DNA from: Bacteroidia bacterium
Lineage (GTDB): Bacteria > Bacteroidota > Bacteroidia > J057
NCBI GenBank assembly: GCA_030430205.1
Contig: JAUIGE010000003.1
Span: forward strand, 62,001-126,000
DNA: 64,000 nucleotides
Direction of reading: 5' to 3'
The number at the start of each line of letters is the position of its first letter. Positions within the stretch are counted from its first letter, which is position 1. Both the position numbers and the translations under genes were made by a program. This document shows positions 42,077-57,021 of the stretch, one piece after another. The notes beneath the pieces were generated by a model. It did not search any database. It saw only the letters and a program-made list of their open reading frames with translations, and was not told the DNA's origin.

Positions 42077-42868
42077 TCATATATCACTATCTAAATGAAC
42101 ATTTACATCTACTTTCCAGCGGTTGTCAACGGCTCCCGGTCGTTGCCCGGACCTTGGGCTCAACAGGACCGGGAAGTACTTTTTATCCTCAAAGTATGTT
42201 TTCAGCAATTCCACCACAGCATCTTCTGCCTCTGTTTGTTCCAGCATATATCCCAGGCGCTGCAAACTGCTATTGAAAGGATACCAACTCAGTAATTCGT
42301 CCATATCTGCCGGAGTAATCTCTTCCACCAATTCCACCAAAACCGTAAAAACCCGATTGATCCCTCCCAGTTTTTTGTGGTGATGCACCAGATCAACGGC
42401 AGTCAGCGCCGGGCTGGAAACCTGATAATAGCCCGCATCTGATTTCCTCTTTAGGATATTTTGAGTTGGCCAATGTGTCAGGCCGAAAAACTGTATGTCA
42501 AAATTTCCTTTTTGGATGTTATGCAGCTTGGGGAGCGGCGTAAGGATGTAATCCCGCATGACCTGCTGGTGACTGGCACCATGTAAAAGGGCCGCAGAGT
42601 ATAATCCAACATAATAATCCCGCTCCAAAAAATCGAAAAGCTTATCGATATACAGAGACAAAGGCAGGTATTTTGAGGCCTTGTAGCGCGGAGGTAAGAT
42701 CAGGTAAAAACCCTGTCGGAGATTGATGACATCCCCTTTTACGATCAATTTGGTCAACATACGCTGGACCGAAACGGCTGATTTGCCAGATTTTTGGATC
42801 CATTCCTGCCATGAGAAGCTGAATTGTTCGCGTGCGAGAAAGTCTTGTATGTAGGATTGGGATGCCAA
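42077..42868 (-). CDS. AbiEi-type antitoxin (type IV toxin-antitoxin)
   Basis: 263-aa antitoxin. The N-terminal winged helix-turn-helix (FSFSWQEWIQKSGKSAVSVQ; MLTKLIVKGDVINLRQGFYL) binds DNA in the AbiE family. The C-terminal domain includes YVGLYSAALLHGASHQQVMR and IQFFGLTHWPTQNI, and PALTAVDLVHHHKKLGGINR, as in AbiEi. Start is probably TTG at 42866-42868; no suitable ATG lies upstream. It ends directly against the fragment of its toxin AbiEii, whose start codon is deleted. Normally AbiEi represses the operon and counteracts the toxin; here the toxin is broken, so only the antitoxin or regulator role could remain. Confidence 0.88.
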   Translation of the reverse strand: MASQSYIQDFLAREQFSFSWQEWIQKSGKSAVSVQRMLTKLIVKGDVINLRQGFYLILPPRYKASKYLPLSLYIDKLFDFLERDYYVGLYSAALLHGASHQQVMRDYILTPLPKLHNIQKGNFDIQFFGLTHWPTQNILKRKSDAGYYQVSSPALTAVDLVHHHKKLGGINRVFTVLVELVEEITPADMDELLSWYPFNSSLQRLGYMLEQTEAEDAVVELLKTYFEDKKYFPVLLSPRSGQRPGAVDNRWKVDVNVHLDSDI

Positions 42869-42943
42869 GTTTTAGTAAAATTTTACATAAATTACCCTTT
42901 ATGGGTTAATAATGCAATTTTTTACTAAGGAAAGTTTTGGATG

Positions 42944-42978
42944 CTCACACCCGCCCCACAAAACTCACCGCCTCAAAG
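42944..42978. repeat. 35-base direct repeat, right copy (3' end of DUF3883 gene)
   Basis: Right partner of 41377-41411, with a single base difference. It contains the last codons and stop of the DUF3883 gene. The 1.5 kb between the copies is the AbiE module. Confidence 0.9.
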
Positions 42979-43781
42979 CGGCACATCTCATCAAAACTCC
43001 CATTCTTCACAAACACCCTCGGCCCCTTCCGAAACTGAAACACCCGATACAAAAAGTAATCCCGCGCCTTCTCCTGGCTGACGCGCAGCTCGTTGCGGGT
43101 GAAGTAGAAGGGGGTGGATTCGCCTAAGGTCGTAGTCTTCACTTCGATGTAGCGGTCTGTGCCATTTTCGTTGCGGGAGAGGATGTCGAAGCCTGCGCCG
43201 TCGCCTGCGTCACGGGCGATCCATTCGATTTGATCGGCGAGGCTGGCTTTGTCGGCCTGGAGGAGGCGGTGCTTTTCGTATTGGAAGATGAGTTCTTCTC
43301 CGAGTTGGCCGAGCTGGCGGTTTTGTTGCTCGATTTGGAGGTAGTTGGGTTTGCGGAGGCGGGGGGTGTAGGTGGCTTTAGATTCCTGGATCTGCACAGG
43401 CGCAGGCGGATTGACGAGCAGCCTGGAGAAGTCGATCTTTTGAGGAGCTTTCAGCTCTTTCGGTTGAGCGAAACGCTCAAATAGCTGATCTAGCTCTTTG
43501 CGCTTGTCCAGGTAATCGAGGACCATGTCTTCGAGCAGGGACTGGTAGTTGAATAATGGCTTATAGCCGATGATATAGGGCTTGTCGTATTTCAGCAGCA
43601 CGGCGCTGATGTTTTGGTGCTTGAATTCGATGGCGCCTTCGGAGCGGTGGTTTAGCTGTGGGAGGAGGGCTTTCCGGAAGGCGGATTTGGTGTAGGGTTG
43701 TCCGGCTATTTCCAGATCGAGCATCTGGAAGTAGTGGTGGAGGGTTTGGGTGATTTCGTGGTGGGACCAGGGGAGTGGCAT
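42945..43781 (-). CDS. DUF3883 domain protein, PD-(D/E)XK-like
   Basis: 278-aa protein. The C-terminal DUF3883 domain (about 155-278) has the pattern of a restriction-type nuclease: LGQLGEELIFQYEK, Asp199 in GAGFDILSRN, and Glu213-x-Lys215 in DRYIEVKTTT. The N-terminal half is a helical domain with an HRSEGAIEFKHQNISAVLLK segment seen in proteins linked to HNH or McrBC-type systems. It is GC-rich like the core genome and unlike the AT-rich operon that begins 20 bases upstream, so it probably predates that insertion. Possible restriction or DNA-damage role; not tested. Confidence 0.82.
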   Translation of the reverse strand: MPLPWSHHEITQTLHHYFQMLDLEIAGQPYTKSAFRKALLPQLNHRSEGAIEFKHQNISAVLLKYDKPYIIGYKPLFNYQSLLEDMVLDYLDKRKELDQLFERFAQPKELKAPQKIDFSRLLVNPPAPVQIQESKATYTPRLRKPNYLQIEQQNRQLGQLGEELIFQYEKHRLLQADKASLADQIEWIARDAGDGAGFDILSRNENGTDRYIEVKTTTLGESTPFYFTRNELRVSQEKARDYFLYRVFQFRKGPRVFVKNGSFDEMCRFEAVSFVGRV

Positions 43782-43801: not shown

Positions 43802-44863
43802 TTAAATTAATTCAATTAGATAAAGTCTATGTATAAATAATTGGACGAGGTCATCACTCTTGTCCACATCCTCCTTGTATAAAAAGTTTATCTCTAACCG
43901 AGTCGGAATCATAAAAGAAGCCAATTTGTCTTCAATGGATTTTAGAACTTTTTTTCTTATTGATTGATCTTCGGAGTTAAAATAAGTGTTAATCAAATCA
44001 TCATATGAATTACTTTTATTTATCGAATTCTTGAATTTGTATTGATCCAAAAGTTCATTAAAGCGAGATCGAATAATTATATAACCTGGTTTGTATGATT
44101 CAGAATCGTAATCATCCAACAGCGGTAGATATTCTATGGGAGGAACTACATCTTTTAATTTTGTTTTAGTCAGTAGTTCCTCTAAATAAAAAGCATCGCT
44201 AATTTTCAACGCCACTTCAATATGGTCGATTAGTCTAGTATAGAATACTATGGCTTTCGAATTATGGAAAGGATTTGTGAAAACCGGGAAATGATTCCAA
44301 ATCTTAGTAAATAAAATAAATGAGTCTATATGTTTTTCATTAGGAATACCAGATAACTGGACAGTTAACCAGTCCGCATATTTTGTAATCAAAGGGTTAT
44401 TATGTATTGATTCTGAAACCCAATCTGATTCTCGCACGGATTCAACTGAATTAATAAATTGCTGCTTTACAAAGTTTTCTAAATCCGCTTTAATGTATTG
44501 TCCATTAGAGTTGATTTTTGAAGAAATTTCATCGAAAAACAGTAGATTTAAATGGGAACGAAAATATTGCCTCAGCTCTGGTTTCAAACAACCGCTATTT
44601 TCTAAGAAAGTTACGATTGCAACTAAATCTTTTTCAAAAAAAATATTCCGAAAAATAAAATCTATCTCAAATTCTGAAAGAGTTAATATTACTTCCCTAT
44701 AAAAATTTAACTTATCATTTTCATTGTAGGAGTTGTAATACCTTTTCCGAGTATCTCTTCTTATTTTTTCATATCTATTTTGACGCTCATCTGGGTCAAG
44801 CTCTTTCATCTCCGATCTTAGTCGGATATGAATGAAATTTTTATTATCCGACTGAAATCCCAT
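43802..44863 (-). CDS. Unknown 353-aa protein, last gene of the DISARM-like operon (drmC position)
   Basis: Not recognised. The protein is helical, Lys- and Asp-rich, with no membrane helix. Visible blocks are KNFIHIRLRSEMKELDPDER, VILTLSEFEIDFIFRNIFFE, NHFPVFTNPFHNSKAIVFYT, YLPLLDDYDSESYKPGYIII and MIPTRLEINFLYKEDVDKSD. I looked for HxK(x)4D phospholipase-D motifs, a P-loop, PD-(D/E)XK, HNH and TIR patterns and found none. It starts 2 bases after the drmB stop and ends the operon. In described class 2 DISARM loci the gene in this place is drmC (PLD nuclease). It may be a replacement effector or a structural partner; that is inference from position only. Confidence 0.75.
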   Translation of the reverse strand: MGFQSDNKNFIHIRLRSEMKELDPDERQNRYEKIRRDTRKRYYNSYNENDKLNFYREVILTLSEFEIDFIFRNIFFEKDLVAIVTFLENSGCLKPELRQYFRSHLNLLFFDEISSKINSNGQYIKADLENFVKQQFINSVESVRESDWVSESIHNNPLITKYADWLTVQLSGIPNEKHIDSFILFTKIWNHFPVFTNPFHNSKAIVFYTRLIDHIEVALKISDAFYLEELLTKTKLKDVVPPIEYLPLLDDYDSESYKPGYIIIRSRFNELLDQYKFKNSINKSNSYDDLINTYFNSEDQSIRKKVLKSIEDKLASFMIPTRLEINFLYKEDVDKSDDLVQLFIHRLYLIELI

Positions 44864-44865
44864 GA

Positions 44866-46962
44866 TTATCTATGCATTACTTCTTTAAAAAATCCATTTG
44901 TTTCATCAACCAAAATTCGTCGATCCAAGTACATATTTCGATGTTCGCATGAAGTTTCACTTACCAAACTGCATGAGAAACAGGATGAAAAATTGAGGTC
45001 AAATAACCCCTGACCTTCCGATTCCCAGCATAATGGATCACTTTGGCAAATTGTTGCTCTGCTAAGCGCATTTTCTACGAGTGCATTTAAATTTCGCTTC
45101 GTAGTCTGCGCAATAAGTCCTCCCATACTACCTTCTGCACCTTCAGCCGTGTAAATCATTACTCCATACATGAGCGTGTCTTTATTATTCGAAACATAAA
45201 TCCTCTCTGATAATGAAGCAGTAGGATACCCACATCTAAACTCTAATTCCTTCATGATTAAGTGGCTAAATGAGTGGATAAGGTATAATTGCCAGTTATG
45301 TGTTCTACCGAATTCAATAGATATTCTGGAAAAAGAGTCCGAGTTAATACCTTCTAATTTTTCATTCAATTCTTCAATCATTAACCTGCCGGAATCACTC
45401 ACTAAGAAATCTTCTAGATAATCTTCATCAAATGCAAAAAATATTCCTTCACCAAAAGATTCTACGACGGGGTACACCTCTACATCTGCTTTCTGACTTC
45501 TGAAGATATTCTTAGAAACAGTGTTCGTTGAATCAGCATCTGCTGGCATAACTCTAGAAAAGTCTAATTGAGCAGAAGTGATTTTCATATTATCAATCCT
45601 CAATATTCTCTTGAAGTAGGGAGACAATTTTAAATTGAGGTTTGATGTAACGTTCCGAACTTTCAAGTGATCTTTCGAGAAATTTATGTCTTCTTCACTT
45701 TTTGTACTGAAGGCATTAAACTCCTGATACCTATAGTGAACTTCTTTCTCCGAATCTTCCAACTGTAATTCAAGTTCATCAGCCTTATCTATTTCTAATG
45801 CTTTTAATTTGTCCCTAAACAGTATTGCGTCTTCTAATCGAGACTCTTTAATCGCTTTTTCTTTTTCGAGTTCCAGTTGCTTTAATTTTAAGGTTCTATC
45901 ATCTAAAGTTAACTCATCAGGCATATAAATACTGGAAAGTACTCTTGAGAAATATAAGTTATTTCCTGTTGTTAAGGCGGCCTTCATTGGATCCTTGTTT
46001 TTACACCCCCCCCTTTCAATTTTTGGGGATTTACTCCTAGCTTGCTTGCTTCCAGAGTAATATTTGTTTTCTCCCGTATATACTTCCCAAGGTAAATGCC
46101 CAGGACACTTAATCTTTAAGCTCATCAACCCTTGCAGAGAAGTCTGCTTTCCACATTTACTACAACTGAGCCATTTACCATCAAACCCTGAAGCATTGGC
46201 AGTACTTGAGGTGATTTTTATTTCTGACGTTGGGCTATTATCATTTCCGCAACATCGGGGGTGATTAAATAAATCGATCGTCTCTTTATTATTAAAACTC
46301 CTTGAAGTATTGGTTTTCCACGCAAGATATTTTGACCATGGAAAATCACTAATATGCCCATGTTCACAGATTAAAACTATGTTATCTTGAATTAAATCTC
46401 CATACCAACCCTTTTCATCATTAAAAATGAACTTAGGTGGAAAAAAATTATTTCCATGCCGATCATCGATTTTCTTGTTAGAGGTCCACTCATCATACCA
46501 TTTACTATAAGGTTTATATTCCTTTTTCTTATTTCGAAATAACTTAGGCATAAATGTACTCGGAATTGTTAGATCTACATTTTCCTTGACCTTATTATTA
46601 TAGTTCTTTAGCTCTATATCAGGAATAAGAACTAAATAATTGAGATTTGGTAACTCTTTTCGATCTGAAAGGGAACGGAGTAACCTTTCATCATTGGAAA
46701 TCTGTATGTTCCCATTTCTACCTTCTTTAGCCTGGGATATTACATATTCATTTAACTCCTTGTCCGTTTTTCCCTGATTGATCCCTTCTTTGCGAATCTC
46801 CTGAATTCTTTTTAAAAAGCCCCATTCTTCAATACACGATACTATGATACTTCCGTACCGTGTATGTACAATTGAACCTGCTCCTCCATAAGCAGTCAAT
46901 AATTTGAACTTACTAATAGATTCGTTTGCCGTTTGGTTTAAATATTGATCCTTTTTTGTCAT
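44866..46962 (-). CDS. drmB: DrmB: DUF1998 domain protein of DISARM
   Basis: 698-aa core DISARM protein. Zinc-type clusters are visible: IVLICEHGHISDFPWSKYL, LSCSKCGKQTSL, and in the C-terminal DUF1998 domain CGYPTASLSERIYV, IYTAEGAEGSMGGLIAQT, ATICQSDPLCWESEGQG and SSCFSCSLVSETSCEHRNMY. A central coiled-coil-like stretch (LKQLELEKEKAIKESRLEDA) is unusual. In characterised DISARM, DrmB binds DrmA and the complex acts on non-self DNA. 4 bases separate it from drmA. AT-rich like the rest of the operon. Confidence 0.9.
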   Translation of the reverse strand: MTKKDQYLNQTANESISKFKLLTAYGGAGSIVHTRYGSIIVSCIEEWGFLKRIQEIRKEGINQGKTDKELNEYVISQAKEGRNGNIQISNDERLLRSLSDRKELPNLNYLVLIPDIELKNYNNKVKENVDLTIPSTFMPKLFRNKKKEYKPYSKWYDEWTSNKKIDDRHGNNFFPPKFIFNDEKGWYGDLIQDNIVLICEHGHISDFPWSKYLAWKTNTSRSFNNKETIDLFNHPRCCGNDNSPTSEIKITSSTANASGFDGKWLSCSKCGKQTSLQGLMSLKIKCPGHLPWEVYTGENKYYSGSKQARSKSPKIERGGCKNKDPMKAALTTGNNLYFSRVLSSIYMPDELTLDDRTLKLKQLELEKEKAIKESRLEDAILFRDKLKALEIDKADELELQLEDSEKEVHYRYQEFNAFSTKSEEDINFSKDHLKVRNVTSNLNLKLSPYFKRILRIDNMKITSAQLDFSRVMPADADSTNTVSKNIFRSQKADVEVYPVVESFGEGIFFAFDEDYLEDFLVSDSGRLMIEELNEKLEGINSDSFSRISIEFGRTHNWQLYLIHSFSHLIMKELEFRCGYPTASLSERIYVSNNKDTLMYGVMIYTAEGAEGSMGGLIAQTTKRNLNALVENALSRATICQSDPLCWESEGQGLFDLNFSSCFSCSLVSETSCEHRNMYLDRRILVDETNGFFKEVMHR

Positions 46963-46966
46963 GCGT

Positions 46967-49900
46967 TTATTGTTGAACAGTTTTAATAACAGAGGAAGGA
47001 TCTATCTCCCTTAACGAGTGTGAAACTTTCCAATGGTTGGGATAGTTATCGTTAGAAGCGCTAACAAAGAGGGATTGAATCAGTCTGTCATGAAAACGAT
47101 ACCTCAATTCAAAAGATTCATCTGAACCTTCCAAGCGATCAATCCAATTATTTAATAGTATATCCACCTTTTGTAGTAAATCGTCTACTTCTTCATCTGA
47201 TATGATTCCGTCAATGCTAGACTTCATACCAAAAGGTTTGGTTGTCAGGAATTCCTCTAATCTATTTGCATTGCAAAGTACTTGTTCCACCTCCTGCTTT
47301 ATTTTTCCTTTTATTTTTTTAATCAAATCATAGGTTAGATTTACAGCACTTTCATTATTGGCTAATCCAAGTTCAGGATCGTGCCTTATCAGAACCGCAA
47401 CATACATAGCTAAATACCTATCAAGTGCTTTTGCCGCGTAAGGAGTTACGGATATTGGTTCGACATAACTGTAGAATTTTTCATGGAACTCCTTGAATTT
47501 TTGATAATGAGATATATCCCTTGATCTAAAAGGATGATGTATTGTAAAGACTATCCCTGCTTCATCACGTGCGACACGACTTGATGCTTGAATATATTCG
47601 GCGATATTTCTTGGCATTGAACAAATAACCATTGTATTAAACCTTGGCACATCTATTCCCACTGAAATCATATTTGTTGAAATCACATATTCAGGAGGGT
47701 TTGTTGTTTTAACTCTTGGCTTTTTACCCGGAACATTTGAGATAAGGCGCCAAGTACTTTCAATATCTGAAAGATTCGTTTTAACCTCTTCACCCGTTAA
47801 CCTTCCTGTAAGTTCAGAGTATTTGACTTCTCCTTCTGAGCGTAAGATCTTATCTAAAAAATTCCATGGCACAGTATTATTTGTGACATAATTGATATCT
47901 CCAGGTAGATAATGACTAAGTTGAGATTGGGTCTTTCCAACATCTTTTAAGCTATTGAAATAAGCAAGAACCGTATGATAGTAGTCAAAGACCTTAGCTT
48001 GATCATTAATGGCAGTTTGATCGCCAAACAGCTCGTCAAGCTCATATTTCTCTCGTAGATATTTCAATCGATGCACAAGAGCTATCGAAGAGACTCTTAG
48101 ATGCATCCAAACTTGGGTTTTGCCAACTGGTAAAACACCGACATATTTCCTGTTTGATTCTATATGCTGTATGTTATTTTCCGACCTTTTATAAAACGAA
48201 AAAAAAGAATCTTCGCAAGAGATTCCCTGCTTGGGAAAGATTTCTGATCTTCTGTTGAAAAGAGCAAATATTTGCTTGTCGGTATTCCTTGTGGTAGCGG
48301 TGGATGTAACAATTTTTGGCTTAATCTTGATCCCAGTATTAGAGTCGAAATATGTACATAAGTAGTCTATACTTCTTTCAAATAAACCAACAGCTGAACC
48401 AAGGGGTCCTAAAAGCAAATGCAACTCATCTTGAATAATCAATTCTGGCGGCAAACAAGCACGCTCTTCATCTCTTGATGAATATCCTTTCCCAAATAGT
48501 CGTCTAGTATCTTTATTACGTTCGCTTGAAGATGTTGAGACATTGTTTGCTAAGGATGCGAATTTGTCCACGGTCCCAAACAATAGTGTTGGAGGAAACT
48601 TGTAAATATCATCATCAAAAATTCTTACCGGTAGGCTAGAGTTGTTGCTGGCCCTGCTAGAATTAAATGTGCAACCATCTGATGGACAAGCAATATTGAG
48701 TTGTTTATCTATTTTATATTCATCTTTCCCATCTTTTATTGTTGGATTGGGATGGACGTTTGGCAAACTGTCACTTTTAAACAAATTTCCACCACACCAC
48801 GGGCATTCCGTGAAAGGAATATTTGTTTTCAATGGTTTACCGGTTCTTATATATTGAGAAATTTTAAGTAACTCCTGAACCATTGATTTCTCTCCTAGAT
48901 CCCAGTAATTGGGTAAAGAGTCCTGGCCAACAAATAAACCGATCGTAATTCTTTCTTCCCCAAGATCATACTTGCCGATATTAAAATTGTCCTTCCTTAT
49001 GACTTCCAATGCACATATCAACATGGTTGCCCGTTGAAATTGTTGAAGAGTAAGAAGTCTTAAGGTGTATCGCATCAAAACTGTAGTTCCAAATCCTTCT
49101 ATACCTTTAGTAAATCTCCTGAAAGCAATTGTGAACCCAATGATTCCTAAGTAAGCTTCGGTTTTGCCGCCACCAGTCGGAAACCACACTAAGTCTGCAA
49201 TTTCATTTCTCTCTGGCCAACCGGTTTTGAAAATATCTTCTACCGTTTTATCATCAATATCTGGTCTTACGAAAGCATCAATATTCAGTAAAATGAATGC
49301 TAGCTGAAAAGATCTCCAGGAATAATCCCTTTCTAATTGAACTTCTTTATAATATGACTCACCACCATGAGGTATAAATGGAGCAGAACCCTTTTTATTA
49401 ATACTATGATGGAGTTGCAAAAACATCGCAGTATTCATTACTCTAAAGGCACTCATCGCAGCTGGATTGGATTCCAAAAGTTGAATATTCCGATTCATTC
49501 TTTTGTAATCTTTCTCGCAACTATTTAATTGTTTTTCTAAGAGTTTTTTTTGGGTTATATCGATAACCTGTTTACTAAGCTCTTCTCTTTTATCGTTTAT
49601 CCAACCCGTTTCACCACCATAAGCCTGAATGAAGTTTCTTAGACTTTTTATGACATCAGAATCACTTACATTATTTTTTGATAGACTAGATAAATAGCGA
49701 ATTTCCAATCCTTGCTCATCCTCTATTCTATTAACCACTTTGTTTTTTTCAATTTTGCTTGGTACGTAATCCACACTTGGCGTTTCCTGGTCGGGAAGAA
49801 ATTCAGTTGTGACAAACTTCAAGCCCCCTGGATTAGTTCCCCAATCAACTGATGTATTGTATCCTTCACCGTAGTCAACATAGTTTCGATAAATGATTTT

Positions 49901-51262
49901 GTTGAAATTATCTTCCTCATCGAAAGAAAGTAATTGAGGAGGGTTATATTGCTGTAAACTATTAACCTTAGTTTCAGTGACAGTTAGCCGCACACCGAAA
50001 AATGATATTTCGTTAGCCTTGTCTTTCTTATTCAATTGGGGCGGCTCCCCCTCTTCTAGTTCAATCAAATTCTTGTTGACAAGAACAATTTTGATATACA
50101 TCAAGTTATTTGCCAAGTCATTGAACTTCACATATTGAACCGCAAATCTTAATCCAGCCAACTCTTCTGATGAAGAATCCACAGGAATCAATTCTTTAGA
50201 TCTATATACCTTCTCCACATTTTCTGAAGAAGGAAGAGTAAGTTCTAATTTGTGAGGGACTGATTCCCAAATTGGTGTGGGTTTATTTTTTTTAAAAACA
50301 GATTTAAGGTTGGTTACATAAGCTTGCAACTGCTTGTATATTTCAATTGATTCAATCAATAATTTTAACCGGTCATAATTCTCAATGCCTTGTCCCAACT
50401 CCCCCTTGATATAATCGATTAGGCTGTTATCAAAAAGGGTATATACGTTTTCGTAATTAAACTTTTTTGGATTAAATGAATATAATGACCTTTCACCTTT
50501 TTGCCCAAAGTAAGATACACCCTTCCCATCTGTTTCCGTCAACATGACATTGCCTGGGAAATGATCGCTTAGGTTATCTATAAGTTCATCTTTCAAATAC
50601 TGGTTTAAACACCCATAATCAATTTCATAGATATTATCACCACTAATCTCATTCTTAACGAAAATGAATAGGTTTCCATCAATCCACTCCGTTCCGAAAA
50701 ATGATTGAAAATATTTACCTATTGCTGCTTCAATTTGAGTGCAGTACTCAGGTACCCAATGGGCAAACCTTCTCTCAATTAATTGTTTTTTCTTTACTTT
50801 CTTATAAGTTCTGAAGGTTAGGTTTACTTTCAGGTCTGATTCTAAACTTATACTTTCATTCACGGCAAACGTGAGCCCCAGTGAATTAGGATAGTTCTGT
50901 TGTTTACTAATAATGCTTTCGGACGAATCATCTTTCATATTCTCGTCGTCAGCACTATTGCTTTCAACCTCAATTTCCTGATTGGGCTTTGATTCATTTT
51001 GTGTTGTTGTTTGTTGCTCTTGAGTTACAATTTCCCGAGTTTCCGGAAACAAAATGCCAGAGCTGTATTGGTAAGCGGGAACTTCAGGTATTATTTCATG
51101 GAGATTCTTGATAGGTTGGCCTTCTTTCAGGTTTTTTCCCGCAAATCCGGAATTTTGCCAATCCTCTAAAAAGAAAAATCTCAGGTTATAACTACCTGGT
51201 CCAATGATTTGCTCTCGAACAAATGTTTCTAGTTTTGCCCTTTTTTTCTTAAACGCGTTCAT
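46967..51262 (-). CDS. drmA: DrmA: superfamily 2 helicase of DISARM
   Basis: 1431-aa DNA translocase or helicase, the hallmark of DISARM. After an acidic N-terminal region, the helicase core has Walker A WFPTGGGKTEAYLG (about residue 690), a zinc insert (CPWCGGNLF and CPSDGCTF, about 820-865), Walker B in the unusual form LIIQDELHLLLGPLGSAVG (about 945), and motif VI in IQASSRVARDEAGIVFTIHH (about 1227), followed by the family's YSYVEPISVTPYAAKALDRY. All motifs are intact. DrmA with DrmB loads on DNA and is thought to be relieved of inhibition by phage DNA. Start ATG at 51260-51262, 10 bases after the preceding stop. Confidence 0.92.
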   Translation of the reverse strand: MNAFKKKRAKLETFVREQIIGPGSYNLRFFFLEDWQNSGFAGKNLKEGQPIKNLHEIIPEVPAYQYSSGILFPETREIVTQEQQTTTQNESKPNQEIEVESNSADDENMKDDSSESIISKQQNYPNSLGLTFAVNESISLESDLKVNLTFRTYKKVKKKQLIERRFAHWVPEYCTQIEAAIGKYFQSFFGTEWIDGNLFIFVKNEISGDNIYEIDYGCLNQYLKDELIDNLSDHFPGNVMLTETDGKGVSYFGQKGERSLYSFNPKKFNYENVYTLFDNSLIDYIKGELGQGIENYDRLKLLIESIEIYKQLQAYVTNLKSVFKKNKPTPIWESVPHKLELTLPSSENVEKVYRSKELIPVDSSSEELAGLRFAVQYVKFNDLANNLMYIKIVLVNKNLIELEEGEPPQLNKKDKANEISFFGVRLTVTETKVNSLQQYNPPQLLSFDEEDNFNKIIYRNYVDYGEGYNTSVDWGTNPGGLKFVTTEFLPDQETPSVDYVPSKIEKNKVVNRIEDEQGLEIRYLSSLSKNNVSDSDVIKSLRNFIQAYGGETGWINDKREELSKQVIDITQKKLLEKQLNSCEKDYKRMNRNIQLLESNPAAMSAFRVMNTAMFLQLHHSINKKGSAPFIPHGGESYYKEVQLERDYSWRSFQLAFILLNIDAFVRPDIDDKTVEDIFKTGWPERNEIADLVWFPTGGGKTEAYLGIIGFTIAFRRFTKGIEGFGTTVLMRYTLRLLTLQQFQRATMLICALEVIRKDNFNIGKYDLGEERITIGLFVGQDSLPNYWDLGEKSMVQELLKISQYIRTGKPLKTNIPFTECPWCGGNLFKSDSLPNVHPNPTIKDGKDEYKIDKQLNIACPSDGCTFNSSRASNNSSLPVRIFDDDIYKFPPTLLFGTVDKFASLANNVSTSSSERNKDTRRLFGKGYSSRDEERACLPPELIIQDELHLLLGPLGSAVGLFERSIDYLCTYFDSNTGIKIKPKIVTSTATTRNTDKQIFALFNRRSEIFPKQGISCEDSFFSFYKRSENNIQHIESNRKYVGVLPVGKTQVWMHLRVSSIALVHRLKYLREKYELDELFGDQTAINDQAKVFDYYHTVLAYFNSLKDVGKTQSQLSHYLPGDINYVTNNTVPWNFLDKILRSEGEVKYSELTGRLTGEEVKTNLSDIESTWRLISNVPGKKPRVKTTNPPEYVISTNMISVGIDVPRFNTMVICSMPRNIAEYIQASSRVARDEAGIVFTIHHPFRSRDISHYQKFKEFHEKFYSYVEPISVTPYAAKALDRYLAMYVAVLIRHDPELGLANNESAVNLTYDLIKKIKGKIKQEVEQVLCNANRLEEFLTTKPFGMKSSIDGIISDEEVDDLLQKVDILLNNWIDRLEGSDESFELRYRFHDRLIQSLFVSASNDNYPNHWKVSHSLREIDPSSVIKTVQQ

Positions 51263-51272
51263 AATCCATGTC

Positions 51273-53597
51273 CTAAAATATTTGAACTTCAGCGAATTCT
51301 AATTCACTAAATATTGTTGAGATTATTGACTCACTAATCTCGCTTAGCTCAGCTGTTTCTTTTCCTGGAAAAATATCTTCGTAGGTACTGATGATTTTAT
51401 TTGTTTGAATTAAAATCTCAGGATTTTCTGACATTCCGAAGAACTCATTTTCAATGAAAAAACTGATTATTTCCTGGTACAATTCAGTGATTCTGTTTTT
51501 CTTCGTTCGACCATAATATGCAATGAAGGCTAAATTCATCTCTGCTTCATCAATCCCAAGAAAGTCACAAATTATTTTCCAATCATTTTTCCGTTTGGGA
51601 ATCACAAATGCCTCGTCTGTCATGCTGTCTTTTTCGATAATATATCTTTGCTCGAAATACTGTTTATGTGAATATGAAATACCTCGTCTGTTCAATTGGG
51701 TGTATAATTCTGGATATTCCGCAAGACGAGTCTGATAATTTCTTATGCTTTCAGAAATTTCTGAATACTTTTCTAGAATGTCCCCTTCATCAATTAATTT
51801 ATCCAAGTCTGATTTTAGCAAAAATTGATCTCCAACCTTCAAATTTTCGGCTTTTGCCTCTATAATGGAGTTTCGCTTAATGTAGACTTTTGAAGTGGAT
51901 TTGAGATCGATTTCCCCATGAATATTGGACTTAATTTGAATTATTCTAGCTTCTGCCCTCTTATCATTTTTTTGGATTTCAACGATCTCCTCCTCATTTC
52001 TGTATTCATCATCGTAATCCGTTGAATCATACTCTTCCTCTTGTAGGACTAATTTTTTCTTTAAATACTTCGAATTATATCCTTTTACTAGTCCCTTAAT
52101 TTCTTGAATGGTATTTTCTTTAAGAGCTTTATATTGGTCAATGTGTTTTGAATAATTGGGATCAAGAATTGATCTGGCAGAACCAATGATGCTACTCCAA
52201 TGAAATCTAATTGTGTGGTATTTCACCCAAGGTTGATAACTGTAAAAAATGAAATCGGGTATAATTATTTGAAATCTCGTGTTACTTAGATGAAGGTTAG
52301 TTTGATCAATAATACTGAACCCATTAAACAGGTAAATAGGCTCAGAATCTTTCCAATGAATACTAGTTTCAGTCACAAATTCTAAGCTATCCTTTAAAAT
52401 CATAGCATAGCTTCTTAATTCGGTCATTATAACTCTAAGTTTATCGCCTGAACGACCTACTAGCTTAGGAAGCAGGATCTTTTGTACATCATTTTCTTGA
52501 AAAAACTTTTCAATCCAATTTAAGTCATGTAACTCTGATATGATTTGCTCGAAATGTTTAATAATTGGTCTATCTACAAGACTTGGATAATCAATAGAAA
52601 ACCGTTCTATCCACCATTGTTTGGCTCTCCCTTGGTTTATACACATCAGCCAATACTTTGGAAATGGAACTTCGAAGCGATTCAATTCTAAGCATTTCCA
52701 ATCTTCCTTTAGAGTCTGCAATAATGAATACAATTGTAAATTGTGGTTAGTATCAAAAACCGTAAAATTGTCATACTTCCACAAACGAATATCTACTCCC
52801 TCTTTTTCTCCTGGATACAAGTTTAATTCATCCTCTGAGTTTGGATCACAAAAGAATCTACTGTTGAATTTTAAACTGAACCTTTTTCTTGAAACTTCCC
52901 GCAGGTATGAGTGAGCCCGCCTTGCATAAGGAAAGATCAATTGTAGTTGCAAGGAGATATTCTCTTGTTTTAATTGTTTTTCTAAGTCTGCAGCTTCATC
53001 TTCATCCATTTTACCGTCAACAAAAAGCAGTATTTCCTTAATGTAATCATTGGATTCTATGCAAGAAAGCGTAAGTATTTTAGGTGACTCCAAATCAATA
53101 AGTCTTGGTTTTTTAAAAAGGTCAACTTGACGAATTGCTTTGAAAATTTCAAATGAGTTATGAATGCCTTGAGAATCATTAAAGGTTCTGATTTGATCAA
53201 TTTTGAAAAATGGCAAGAATTTTTGCCTGCCTGTGAGTATTCCATTTTGCCATCGATCTATGTTCAATTTCGAATGGTCAAAATGAATGATGTAATCCAA
53301 TGGTTCATCTAATTGCATTTTCGGCCGTGGCCTGAAAAAATCAAAAAGGCCTGTGTTTTGATCAGGGCAGGGAGAATTTTCATTTGATAATTCGATTAAT
53401 ATTGAAAGTACTCGAATATATTTCCAGGAAATATTTACAAATTCACTATCATATTCTGGCAGAGTCAAAATCAATTCTGAACATTCAGACTCCATAAATC
53501 TCCAAAACCAGCAACCAATTTCCTTAAGCCTAGGATTTTCTCCTATCCCTATTGCTTTAGTAACAGCTATATGAAAGTCATTAAAACCTACTTCCAT
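51273..53597 (-). CDS. Unknown 774-aa protein, DrmE candidate
   Basis: No domain recognised. Placed directly before drmA, where class 2 DISARM loci carry drmE, and similar in size; I cannot confirm the family from memory of sequence. Visible segments: IVSYPYARRA-type text (QLIFPYARRAHSYLREVSRK), GRSGDKLRVIMTELRSYAMI, WSSIIGSARSILDPNYSKH, then a very acidic linker at about 515-540 (EEEYDSTDYDDEYRNEEE) and a small beta-rich domain with KVYIKRNSIIEAKAENLKVG, ending with two helical units (WKIICDFLGIDEAEMNLAFI; RITELYQEIISFFIENEFFG). No P-loop or nuclease motif is seen. Its start overlaps the NERD-helicase gene by 10 bases. Confidence 0.72.
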   Translation of the reverse strand: MEVGFNDFHIAVTKAIGIGENPRLKEIGCWFWRFMESECSELILTLPEYDSEFVNISWKYIRVLSILIELSNENSPCPDQNTGLFDFFRPRPKMQLDEPLDYIIHFDHSKLNIDRWQNGILTGRQKFLPFFKIDQIRTFNDSQGIHNSFEIFKAIRQVDLFKKPRLIDLESPKILTLSCIESNDYIKEILLFVDGKMDEDEAADLEKQLKQENISLQLQLIFPYARRAHSYLREVSRKRFSLKFNSRFFCDPNSEDELNLYPGEKEGVDIRLWKYDNFTVFDTNHNLQLYSLLQTLKEDWKCLELNRFEVPFPKYWLMCINQGRAKQWWIERFSIDYPSLVDRPIIKHFEQIISELHDLNWIEKFFQENDVQKILLPKLVGRSGDKLRVIMTELRSYAMILKDSLEFVTETSIHWKDSEPIYLFNGFSIIDQTNLHLSNTRFQIIIPDFIFYSYQPWVKYHTIRFHWSSIIGSARSILDPNYSKHIDQYKALKENTIQEIKGLVKGYNSKYLKKKLVLQEEEYDSTDYDDEYRNEEEIVEIQKNDKRAEARIIQIKSNIHGEIDLKSTSKVYIKRNSIIEAKAENLKVGDQFLLKSDLDKLIDEGDILEKYSEISESIRNYQTRLAEYPELYTQLNRRGISYSHKQYFEQRYIIEKDSMTDEAFVIPKRKNDWKIICDFLGIDEAEMNLAFIAYYGRTKKNRITELYQEIISFFIENEFFGMSENPEILIQTNKIISTYEDIFPGKETAELSEISESIISTIFSELEFAEVQIF

Positions 53598-55267
53598 TGA
53601 ATCAGTTTTAAGTCGTCCATTGCTCTTGTAGCACCAATATAATTTTGAGTTTTTGATGCAGACTCAAAATTATCTGTAAATAGATAAACAGAACTTGTTT
53701 CGAGTCCACGATACTTTATTGGAGTAGTATACCTGATTTTTGTTGATGCGATGCAAACATTCTGCTCTGTCAGTTCTTCCAACTCAGATTTGAAAAAATC
53801 GTTTACTAAAATGTTAAAGTCAAATAAAATTTTGGAGTTAACTAAGATCACCTTTTCACCATTTGTATACCTCGAATCATTGACAATTTCTTGAACGATT
53901 TTAATTTTGGATTCTTCACTTGTGACCTCGACAATTGAGTGCTTGAATTGATTGATTAGAGCTGTGCTAGACTTTTTCAGAATTGTGTTGGAGATATCAC
54001 CAATTGTTGGGTTTTGTATGCAACGAAAGTTTGAATCAAATAAATAATGTGTGAACCCAAGGTCAATGAAATAATCAGCATACCATGAAATATCTGTAAA
54101 GTCTTGTCTGACTGTTTGGTTAGGGTCAAATAATATCAATAATTTCGGCTCTTCGGATTTCTTCTCAAGAGATTCTATAAATTCGGCAAGACCCTTATCC
54201 AGATACTCTTGAGCCTCATCGAAAATAACAAAGTCAATATCAGCGCCAATCGAATCTATAGATATTTGCTGACTAAATATTTTAAAAGCAATTGAGTTCG
54301 AGTCCAACCGATAGTCATTTGTAATAATGTTTTCTAGTTTTTTTCGAACCAATTTGTTTGCGCAAAAGACTATTCCTCTATGTTGCTTCAACAAGTTTTC
54401 CGCAAGGTATTTGGTAGCCAATACTGTTTTACCGGTTCCGGGAGCTCCTTGAACTAAAACACATCGATTTCGCCGAAGGCCTTTGAGTGTTTCATAATTT
54501 TCATTGAGTATAATTTCCGATATTATCTTATCTGGATTATATCCATATGAAGTTTGATTTGGAAACAATTCAGATTTTATTCTTTTGATTTCTTTTGTCT
54601 TTAATTCAGGATATGTAGAGAAAAGATTTTTATTGATTTTTTCCAGTGATTTATTCGGATATAGTTCCTTTCGAACCCTTCTTCTTGAGCGTATTCCTAA
54701 TTCTGATATGAATTGAAAAAACGATTCGTTGATAGCTCGAAAATCTGTACTGGTATTCAAATGCCCGAAATCCTTTTTCGAATAGAATAGATAGTCGTAT
54801 CCTTCTAATTGTGGTCCCAAGAGCTTGAACCCAGCTTCGTGAGGTAGTACAACTGCACGATACACGAATATCTTTGAGCTTATTAAATTCCTAAAACTAT
54901 GAATGTATTCTTTTGCTTGATTAAATGGATTTTGTGTTTCGTACTCTCCTTGGCTATTGTAAGAGTAGTAAACGTCATTCCCATCAACTCTAAGTCCTCC
55001 TCCTTTGACTTCAATCACGAGTAAACCGTGCTTTGACAGCAGTATAAAATCAACTTGACCTTCCACTTTTCCTTCACTACCCGGATTTTTAGATAAGTTA
55101 TAATTGTGCTTTAAATACCAGGTTTCATCTGGAACAAGATTCAGCTCGTTAAATTGCAAGAATTGCCTATAAACCCAGATTTCCCCCTCAAGAGCTGAGC
55201 CATCTTTTTTGGTAATAACCTGCTCTAAGCCGTTACTTGGATAATTATCGATGAAATGTATTGGCAT
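53588..55267 (-). CDS. NERD nuclease - superfamily 1 helicase fusion protein
   Basis: 559-aa two-domain protein. Residues about 25-130 form a NERD (nuclease-related) domain with the PD-(D/E)XK-type triad Asp73 and Glu86-x-Lys88 in GQVDFILLSKHGLLVIEVKG. From about 255 a DUF2075/UvrD-like ATPase core follows: Walker A GAPGTGKT at 275-282, Walker B VIFDEAQEYL with DEAQ at 351-354, and a final motif NYIGATRAMDDLKLIQW. All catalytic residues are present, so it could cut or unwind DNA or RNA. It is not one of the standard DISARM genes. Its ATG overlaps the methyltransferase stop by one base (TAATG on the minus strand), so the two are tightly coupled. Confidence 0.85.
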   Translation of the reverse strand: MPIHFIDNYPSNGLEQVITKKDGSALEGEIWVYRQFLQFNELNLVPDETWYLKHNYNLSKNPGSEGKVEGQVDFILLSKHGLLVIEVKGGGLRVDGNDVYYSYNSQGEYETQNPFNQAKEYIHSFRNLISSKIFVYRAVVLPHEAGFKLLGPQLEGYDYLFYSKKDFGHLNTSTDFRAINESFFQFISELGIRSRRRVRKELYPNKSLEKINKNLFSTYPELKTKEIKRIKSELFPNQTSYGYNPDKIISEIILNENYETLKGLRRNRCVLVQGAPGTGKTVLATKYLAENLLKQHRGIVFCANKLVRKKLENIITNDYRLDSNSIAFKIFSQQISIDSIGADIDFVIFDEAQEYLDKGLAEFIESLEKKSEEPKLLILFDPNQTVRQDFTDISWYADYFIDLGFTHYLFDSNFRCIQNPTIGDISNTILKKSSTALINQFKHSIVEVTSEESKIKIVQEIVNDSRYTNGEKVILVNSKILFDFNILVNDFFKSELEELTEQNVCIASTKIRYTTPIKYRGLETSSVYLFTDNFESASKTQNYIGATRAMDDLKLIQWK

Positions 55268-57021
55268 TATTTCATGTTTGATGTTGTCGAGATTTTGTTA
55301 ATCGCATAAAGAGCAAAAAGCTGCTCCATCGGCACCTCTGATTTATGCTTGAAAACTCTCATCGAGTTCTGCCTAAACATTTCTTGATCAAAATTCATTG
55401 AATCAATTCTCTCCCGAACTGTTTCAATTAACTCAATTGGACACATGAAGGAACTATTCCCTTTATTATGTTCATATAAGATTTGCAATGTTTGACTATC
55501 TGGAATTCTTTCTGAGAAGCCATTATTTATGTAGTTAACAAATTGCTTCCCATTCTCAATAGCGAAAAGGATTTTTTCTATTTTCTCAAAGAAATAATCT
55601 GGAACAGATTGATTAGGGTATCCATGCCCATTGCCGTACTGTATTGACGTCCTCCATTTGCTTGTCTCCGCGGGCGTTTCTCCAATTTTGTAATTTGATA
55701 GAGTTACGGTTATGTTTCCATACTTAAATGGATGACGTCTGAATCTGGCACCTGGATTCCTTTTTGGTCTTTCATTAAACACTCTTGGAGAAAATGTATT
55801 AAGATTGGTAACAGACTTCAATTTATCGGCATTAATTCTGAAACTTTGAGCCTTTGATTTAAAGCCAATTTCATCAGAGAGTTTTTTAGATAACGCTTTG
55901 CTTACCGTAGGGCAAACTGCATTACCCACTAGTCTCTTCTTTGCATTGGACTTCCCAATGAACTGATATGTTATAGGAAATCCCATTAAGCAGGCCATTT
56001 CACGTATAGTCGGAATTCTATATTCCCCATCTCCTTTCCTCCCGTACTCAGATGGATAGATAATTGCTTCTCTAGAAGTCCCAATATTGGTAGCTGTAAT
56101 GGTTCGACTTGGTCTTGAAAGCTTTTCAGGAAATGACATTCTTCCCATGAATGGGTGATTGGTCTTTAGGTATCTTGATTGTTCCCAATGTATTTCATAC
56201 AATCCACTGTCATAGAAATGGTCCGTAACCTCTGAGAGGGTCAAGGTGATATGAGGGTAAATAGGGTCTTTTACTTCTCTATTCGATTTCTTAGAATTTG
56301 GGCCAGGCAGAACATCCATAACATCTCCAAGTGTTATCCAACGTTTTAATCCTATGATTTCCCCTTTCTCTCCATGAGTTACCTTAGGTATAATCGGTGT
56401 TGACTTTGCGATATTTTCACTAGTAATTAATCGTTTTCTTACCTGAGGGCAGCCGTAGTCTGAAGAAATTAAAACTTTGCTATGTCCCTTTATGTTGATG
56501 GCTACATCTTTACCTGAATACCCCAAACCCTCAGCCCAATCCATTAGATTCAAGTCCTGAAATGTGTATCGGTCTTGAAGATATTTGGCTGAGTTTGTGA
56601 CATTTTCCATGAACCAGGCTTCTAGAATAGAATCTTTAGAATATTTCTTAACCACGATAATCCTTAAAAATGTCTCCGTCAAGCGGACCCCTAATGATTT
56701 GTCTGACTTACCTGATTTATTAGAATTGGAAAAAGAAACGCATGGAGGACTCCCAATAATTATGTTTGTATTTGGTAGTTTCTCAATTTGCTCGATATCA
56801 TCCTCGAAATCGAGAACATTTTTAACAGTACAATTGAGACCGTAGTTAAAGTTAAAAGTATTAATTGCAGGTTGCCAACTATCTATCCCATGTATGATTT
56901 TATATCCATGCAGGAAAAATCCGGAAGAAAATCCACCTGCCCCACAAAATATGTCCATCACAGTTTTGTTGCCATTATTGCTCAACAATTTATTTGGTTC
57001 ATTTTGTATATAAGCCTCCAT
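55267..57021 (-). CDS. drmMII: DNA (cytosine-5) methyltransferase, DrmMII type
   Basis: 584-aa C5-cytosine methyltransferase, first gene of the DISARM-like operon. Motif I DIFCGAGGF at 23-31; motif IV SPPCVSFSNS with catalytic Cys94; motif VI ENV at 139-141; motif VIII QVRKR at 193-197; target-recognition region about 200-345; motif IX RPSRTITATN; motif X GNAVCPTVSKAL at 366 on. A 200-residue C-terminal extension (RRHPFKYGNITVTLSNYKIG and following) matches no domain I know and may contact the other DISARM proteins. In DISARM the methyltransferase marks host DNA as self. Upstream lies a TTTACA-N5-TGTAAA palindrome. Confidence 0.9.
   Translation of the reverse strand: MEAYIQNEPNKLLSNNGNKTVMDIFCGAGGFSSGFFLHGYKIIHGIDSWQPAINTFNFNYGLNCTVKNVLDFEDDIEQIEKLPNTNIIIGSPPCVSFSNSNKSGKSDKSLGVRLTETFLRIIVVKKYSKDSILEAWFMENVTNSAKYLQDRYTFQDLNLMDWAEGLGYSGKDVAINIKGHSKVLISSDYGCPQVRKRLITSENIAKSTPIIPKVTHGEKGEIIGLKRWITLGDVMDVLPGPNSKKSNREVKDPIYPHITLTLSEVTDHFYDSGLYEIHWEQSRYLKTNHPFMGRMSFPEKLSRPSRTITATNIGTSREAIIYPSEYGRKGDGEYRIPTIREMACLMGFPITYQFIGKSNAKKRLVGNAVCPTVSKALSKKLSDEIGFKSKAQSFRINADKLKSVTNLNTFSPRVFNERPKRNPGARFRRHPFKYGNITVTLSNYKIGETPAETSKWRTSIQYGNGHGYPNQSVPDYFFEKIEKILFAIENGKQFVNYINNGFSERIPDSQTLQILYEHNKGNSSFMCPIELIETVRERIDSMNFDQEMFRQNSMRVFKHKSEVPMEQLFALYAINKISTTSNMK

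Follow-up and report, generated by a model that had tools for sequence, protein, structure and literature searches.

The window analysed here, a 64,000-nucleotide stretch of a Bacteroidia bacterium genome (contig JAUIGE010000003.1, positions 62,001 to 126,000), carries a minus-strand operon in which a gene for a NERD nuclease fused to a superfamily 1 (SF1)/Schlafen-type helicase stands among relatives of DISARM defence genes. In order of transcription, the operon comprises a C5 cytosine DNA methyltransferase of 584 amino acids (55267..57021; PF00145, E 1.2e-33), the NERD-helicase of 559 amino acids (53588..55267), a 774-amino-acid protein that may be a remote DrmE relative (51273..53597), a DrmA-like superfamily 2 (SF2) helicase of 1431 amino acids (46967..51262), a DrmB-like DUF1998/MZB protein of 698 amino acids (44866..46962), and, encoded by the last gene of the operon, a 353-amino-acid protein (43802..44863). 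No two neighbouring genes of the six lie more than 10 bases apart, and no overlap exceeds 10 bases. An earlier note on this DNA had located the fusion at exactly 53588..55267 without mentioning the strand; the open reading frame has precisely these bounds on the minus strand, and the plus strand there is full of stop codons. As that note had also described, the methyltransferase stop (...AAATAA) and the NERD-helicase ATG form a TAATG junction in which the final A, at 55267, is shared. At its 3' end, the NERD-helicase gene shares 10 bases with the DrmE-like gene that follows (53597..51273).

Both halves of the NERD-helicase are recognised by family models. Specifically, residues 36-142 (approximately 54841..55162, minus strand) match the NERD domain (PF08378; E 1.5e-12, 48.4 bits against a cut-off of 22.1), and the D...ExK residues of a PD-(D/E)xK nuclease are in place as D73 and E86-V-K88. 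The helicase domain, at approximately residues 243-559 (53591..54541, minus strand), matches SLFN-g3_helicase (PF09848; residues 268-442, E 1.7e-14, 54.3 bits against a cut-off of 24) and Viral_helicase1 (PF01443; E 2.8e-9), and it displays the features of the SF1/Schlafen group 3 helicases, with Walker A (GAPGTGKT, residues 274-281), Walker B (DEAQ, residues 350-353), motifs III to VI and two RecA-like domains. In an alignment of 42 NERD-helicases (23-61% identity to the window protein, mean column identity 42%), no variation was seen in the nuclease residues D73, E86 and K88, in K280, T281 and the glycines of Walker A, or in D350 and E351 of Walker B; D381 and Q384 of motif III, R415, E523, and R548 of motif VI are likewise invariant.

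The AlphaFold2 model of the protein has a mean predicted local distance difference test score (pLDDT) of 84 and a predicted template modelling score (pTM) of 0.69, and Foldseek matched its residues 243-559 to Schlafen 11/14 and to helicases of the UvrD/RecD type with an E of 1.5e-13. VIA-align gave Z scores of 23-25, with Z 24.9 for UvrD (301 residues, root-mean-square deviation 3.3) and Z 23.0 for SLFN11. Because helicase matches took up the list of the fold search, it hardly tested the NERD part of the model, and translocation polarity could not be read from these matches. Together, the intact motifs and the model support the view, already put forward in the earlier note from the same catalytic triad and Walker motifs, that this is a complete enzyme predicted to both cut and translocate.

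The downstream partners place the operon close to DISARM. DrmA matches NF038325 (DISARM_DrmAS) with 726.7 bits (E 5.6e-218), under the equivalog cut-off of 950, and the PADLOC DrmA model at 5.9e-174. DrmB, which is encoded as a separate DUF1998 gene, passes the cut-off of NF038324 (DrmB_fam; 298.9 bits against 240) and matches PF09369 (MZB). Since DrmA falls below its equivalog threshold while DrmB passes its own, the locus appears to represent a divergent branch of DISARM. The PLD nuclease DrmC of known DISARM systems was absent from the PADLOC, Pfam and NCBIfam matches of the operon proteins, which is still compatible with a DISARM relative, because DrmC is often missing and dispensable (PMC9142583). 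The methyltransferase retains its C5 motifs (DIFCGAGG, PPC, ENV and QVRKR) and carries a C-terminal extension of approximately 190 amino acids. Its description as a DISARM methyltransferase in the earlier note holds by operon context rather than by family, because the generic type II model outscores the DISARM model in PADLOC (MTase_II 1.3e-41, DrmMII 8.9e-25).

The 774-amino-acid protein had no family match in PADLOC, Pfam or NCBIfam, and none of 42 members of its family matched the DrmE model NF038316. A profile-profile comparison of its alignment with an alignment containing DrmE_fam members nevertheless gave a match over the C-terminal 169 columns (probability 94%, E 1.2e-7), which argues with moderate strength that it is a remote relative of DrmE. 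The model of this protein (pLDDT 82) weakly resembles SF2 helicase cores, and a P-loop is absent from all 42 members. A reading of the protein as an inactive SF2 helicase was considered and dropped, given that the best Foldseek match had an E of 0.004 and a TM of 0.2 and that VIA-align returned Z scores of 8 to 10 with large deviations, near background; what may be retained is a faint SF2-like resemblance lacking a P-loop. With a median pairwise identity of 0.16, versus 0.31 for the NERD-helicase, the DrmE-like protein is the fastest-evolving of the four genes compared, and it is therefore a candidate recognition or counter-defence surface. No match to it was found in viral contigs.

Conservation of this arrangement was examined by a DrmA scan of one genome per species, using an alignment of four DrmA proteins as the query, which returned 78 loci. 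The order methyltransferase, NERD-helicase, protein of approximately 800 amino acids, DrmA and DrmB, with gaps or overlaps of a few bases, recurs in many Bacteroidota families, including members of Flavobacterium, Polaribacter, Sphingobacterium, Pedobacter, Chryseobacterium, Dyadobacter, Spirosoma, Psychroflexus and other genera. In two Pontibacter loci (L031 and L032) and in L035, the methyltransferase lies nearby, either non-adjacent or on the opposite strand. On a DrmA tree built by a quick method under LG+G4, all of these loci fall into a single clade of 53 rows with an SH-aLRT support of 100. Eight of the 53 rows are cut by contig ends, their upstream side not being visible, and were left out of the count; among the 45 testable loci, the window operon included, 43 encode the NERD-helicase. 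Absence of the gene from all related loci, which the earlier note had said would speak against its proposal, is thus not what was found. L019, a near-identical copy of the window operon, was scored as lacking the NERD-helicase only because the contig cuts the gene. The nearest outgroup loci, L016 to L018, lack the gene; in L018 (8371-20000), also from Bacteroidota, genes for a prokaryotic Argonaute, a 559-amino-acid protein of unknown function and a McrB-like AAA protein lie ahead of the related DrmE-like, DrmA and DrmB genes.

The genes of the clade also appear to have been inherited together. Across 40 loci, pairwise distances of the NERD-helicase correlate with those of DrmA at r = 0.97, compared with 0.98 for DrmB and 0.95 for the DrmE-like protein, and none of 2000 permutations reached these values. 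Accidental or hit-and-run co-location was rejected on the grounds of gene order, the DrmA tree and these correlations, and in view of the gene's frequency in the clade, its invariant residues and its recurrence elsewhere, it is very unlikely that the NERD-helicase is an accidental neighbour.

Such recurrence was seen outside the clade using separate profiles of the NERD and helicase halves. For example, a class-2-like locus of Chloroflexi (L081) has the order DrmE_fam, NERD-helicase (L081:7923-9371), DrmA, DrmB and C5 methyltransferase, and a class-1-like locus of Leucothrix arctica (L077) encodes an SNF2 helicase, a PglX-like methyltransferase, DrmA, DrmB and DrmC, followed by the NERD-helicase (L077:15865-17541). 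In two contigs of a viral collection (L105 and L106), a C5 methyltransferase and NERD-helicase face DrmA and DrmB; L124 combines a C5 methyltransferase, DrmE-like protein and NERD-helicase, in that order, with a DrmA-like gene; and in L108, the NERD-helicase follows a 2121-amino-acid protein of weak DrmA similarity. The D, E and K residues are retained in all of these proteins. In a sample of 395 genomes of the class, seven had a match at E <= 1e-10, and five of the seven were in a DISARM-type context. The single close viral-contig match to the NERD-helicase, a truncated gene with 61% identity, abuts phage structural genes on a 4.6-kb viral-collection contig (L005:2-691); this contig is possibly chimeric, and the match was not used.

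Taken as a whole, gene content and order, invariant catalytic residues, co-inheritance with DrmA and DrmB, and recurrence in separate lineages favour, with somewhat better than even confidence, a divergent, class-2-like DISARM of Bacteroidota in which the NERD-SF1 helicase would take the place of the PLD nuclease DrmC as the DNA-destroying effector. The NERD-helicase would then probably be the regular nuclease of a DISARM variant that had not been named before, rather than a stray neighbour. In the mechanism envisaged, the C5 methyltransferase, judging by its family, would mark the host's own DNA. DrmA and DrmB may then load on unmarked incoming DNA that exposes single-stranded DNA or 5' ends, as suggested by work on Serratia DISARM, where the DrmAB ATPase is stimulated by unmethylated DNA and 5' overhangs are preferred (PMC9142583), and the fast-evolving DrmE-like protein may act with them as a sensor or adaptor. 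These proteins would recruit or license the NERD-helicase, whose SF1 motor would translocate while the PD-(D/E)xK NERD domain cuts, thereby destroying the invader. How DISARM destroys DNA is an open question, given that the nuclease it recruits is unknown and that DrmC, besides being dispensable, does not co-purify with DrmAB (PMC9142583). With its invariant active sites, the NERD-helicase of this large, co-inherited branch of DISARM would offer a concrete effector candidate, testable by single-residue mutation.

It might be argued instead that the NERD-helicase is only a passenger in the operon, a self-sufficient defence gene similar to Nhi that acts alone, triggered, for instance, by a phage single-stranded DNA-binding protein or by DNA ends. 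Nhi is indeed its best PADLOC match (E 8.1e-11), Nhi-like and Mokosh I systems are listed as having a NERD domain (PMC10952713), and other Bacteroidota carry related NERD-helicases either on their own or next to SbcCD-like genes (L123 and L125). However, the Nhi match spans only helicase residues 257-390, the operon position is fixed in 42 other loci, and both the start and the stop of the gene are coupled to its neighbours. Co-inheritance with DrmA weakens this explanation further, and we consider it rather unlikely.

The identity of the gene ahead of the NERD-helicase bears on two further alternatives. In 14 loci of a gut-type Bacteroidales subclade (L040, L043, L044, L055, L057, L058, L060, L062, L063, L066, L069, L071, L051 and L052), this gene encodes not a methyltransferase but a radical-SAM-type protein of 460-530 amino acids with a CxxxCxxC motif, which reads GCIRHCPFC in most members; in L051 and L052, a gene of approximately 230 codons lies between it and the NERD-helicase. 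A faecal contig (L121) has the same order of radical-SAM-type gene, NERD-helicase and DrmE-like gene. Matches to the Pfam Radical_SAM family are weak (4 of 12 members, best E 0.02), and a sequence search of the alignment against solved structures returned only a spurious match to AcrIIA6. Homologues with 31-37% identity, annotated as radical SAM, occur in gut phages, one of them adjoining a DNA methyltransferase. In a crude scan for motifs, the available flanks of the radical-SAM loci yielded no methyltransferase, and a single change on the DrmA tree suffices to explain the distribution of the two states.

The first of these alternatives holds that the NERD-helicase is a second-line, self-harming effector, degrading all of the cell's DNA when the methyltransferase is inhibited or the host mark is lost. 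Its direct coupling to a self-marking gene would suit such abortive infection, and the NERD domains of PglW in type 2 BREX have been proposed as back-up suicidal nucleases (PMC12839542). In the second, it would assist modification and not restriction, either by remodelling DNA on behalf of the methyltransferase or by repairing damage made by the system, in keeping with its position in most loci immediately downstream of a modification gene. Both are weakened by the finding that the NERD-helicase is kept where the methyltransferase is absent. In addition, the window's DrmA and DrmB have no other recognised nuclease partner, which makes the self-harming role unlikely. A modification-side role is highly improbable: the gene adjoins those of two modification-type enzymes that are unrelated to each other, its nuclease residues do not vary, and its neighbour in L077 and L081 is DrmC or DrmA rather than a methyltransferase.

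Since the methyltransferase is swapped for a radical-SAM-type gene beside the same core, the core stays and the presumed marking enzyme changes. It is tempting to suggest, if only tentatively and with some doubt, that a fixed restriction core, made up of NERD-helicase, DrmE-like protein, DrmA and DrmB, is served by interchangeable self-marking enzymes, mostly a C5 methyltransferase and, in gut-type Bacteroidales, a radical-SAM enzyme. That the latter modifies DNA is a guess. If true, the radical-SAM version would be DISARM-like but would distinguish the cell's own DNA from foreign DNA by a modification that is not classical methylation, and the swap raises the question of whether the self mark must be methylation at all.

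Several observations weigh against the NERD-helicase as the effector of a methylation-gated DISARM. The subclade with a radical-SAM enzyme in place of the methyltransferase means that methylation-gating cannot be general. Two loci of the clade, L037 and L053, lack the NERD-helicase, which is thus not strictly indispensable; L053 is a fifteenth locus with the radical-SAM-type gene. PLD proteins encoded elsewhere in the genome could act as DrmC in trans. Finally, L123 and L125 encode related NERD-helicases outside DISARM, so the module is shared between defence contexts. In L123 (9873-15125), the genes next to it encode an SMC-like ATPase and a nuclease resembling SbcD, which may be a further defence context.

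The operon can be compared with several described systems. With class 2 DISARM (DrmMII, DrmE, DrmA, DrmB and DrmC), it shares a C5 methyltransferase, a putative remote DrmE relative, DrmA, DrmB and tight packing, but it adds the NERD-SF1 helicase and the 353-amino-acid gene, lacks a recognised PLD DrmC, and has a methyltransferase that is not DrmMII by best match and a DrmE-like protein too diverged for NF038316. The earlier note's placement of the NERD-helicase outside the described DISARM classes agrees with PADLOC and NCBIfam, in which no DISARM component matches it. Nhi and Nhi-like systems likewise unite a nuclease and an SF1-type helicase in a single protein, NERD being reported for the latter, but Nhi is a single-gene system, whereas the present gene sits in a six-gene operon and resembles the Nhi model only in its helicase core. 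TALON shares a YprA/DUF1998-type helicase and a NERD nuclease, but in TALON the helicase is a single ARMADA-like protein whose RNase H domain is inactivated, accompanied by TBP and TPR-CSD proteins (PMC12458937); in the window operon, DrmA and DrmB are products of separate genes, the NERD domain is joined to an SF1 helicase, and no TBP or TPR-CSD domain was found among the operon proteins with PADLOC, Pfam and NCBIfam. Type II ARMADA pairs a YprA-type helicase operon with an SF1 (GajB-like UvrD) helicase bearing an N-terminal predicted nuclease, but that domain is RelE-like, the methyltransferase resembles PglX and the main helicase has a fused Vsr domain as its nuclease (PMC12458937). Both systems represent comparable nuclease or helicase additions on other YprA-family branches (PMC12458937). 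SLFN11 and SLFN14 provide the best profile and fold matches to the helicase core, but their N-terminal RNA-cutting domain is replaced by NERD in the window protein. The literature searched did not join the NERD domain to DISARM; the original DISARM paper and its supplements lay outside this search, and an earlier notice is possible.

Some smaller observations concern the remaining genes. The DrmE-like gene is split at about the same place in two loci (L050:7527-9989 and L122:7129-8025), with a protein of 298 or 299 amino acids after the NERD-helicase in both; the second part in L050 comprises 517 amino acids, and the L122 contig ends before any second part. The split point looks like a natural domain boundary. 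The 353-amino-acid protein had no family match in PADLOC, Pfam or NCBIfam, and its relatives directly follow DrmB in approximately 14 loci, all in the window's subclade. A plasmid search found no close relative of the operon. Directly downstream (window 42077-43781) lie a PDC-S36 candidate defence gene with a NOV_C domain and an AbiEi antitoxin gene, which mark the region as a defence island.

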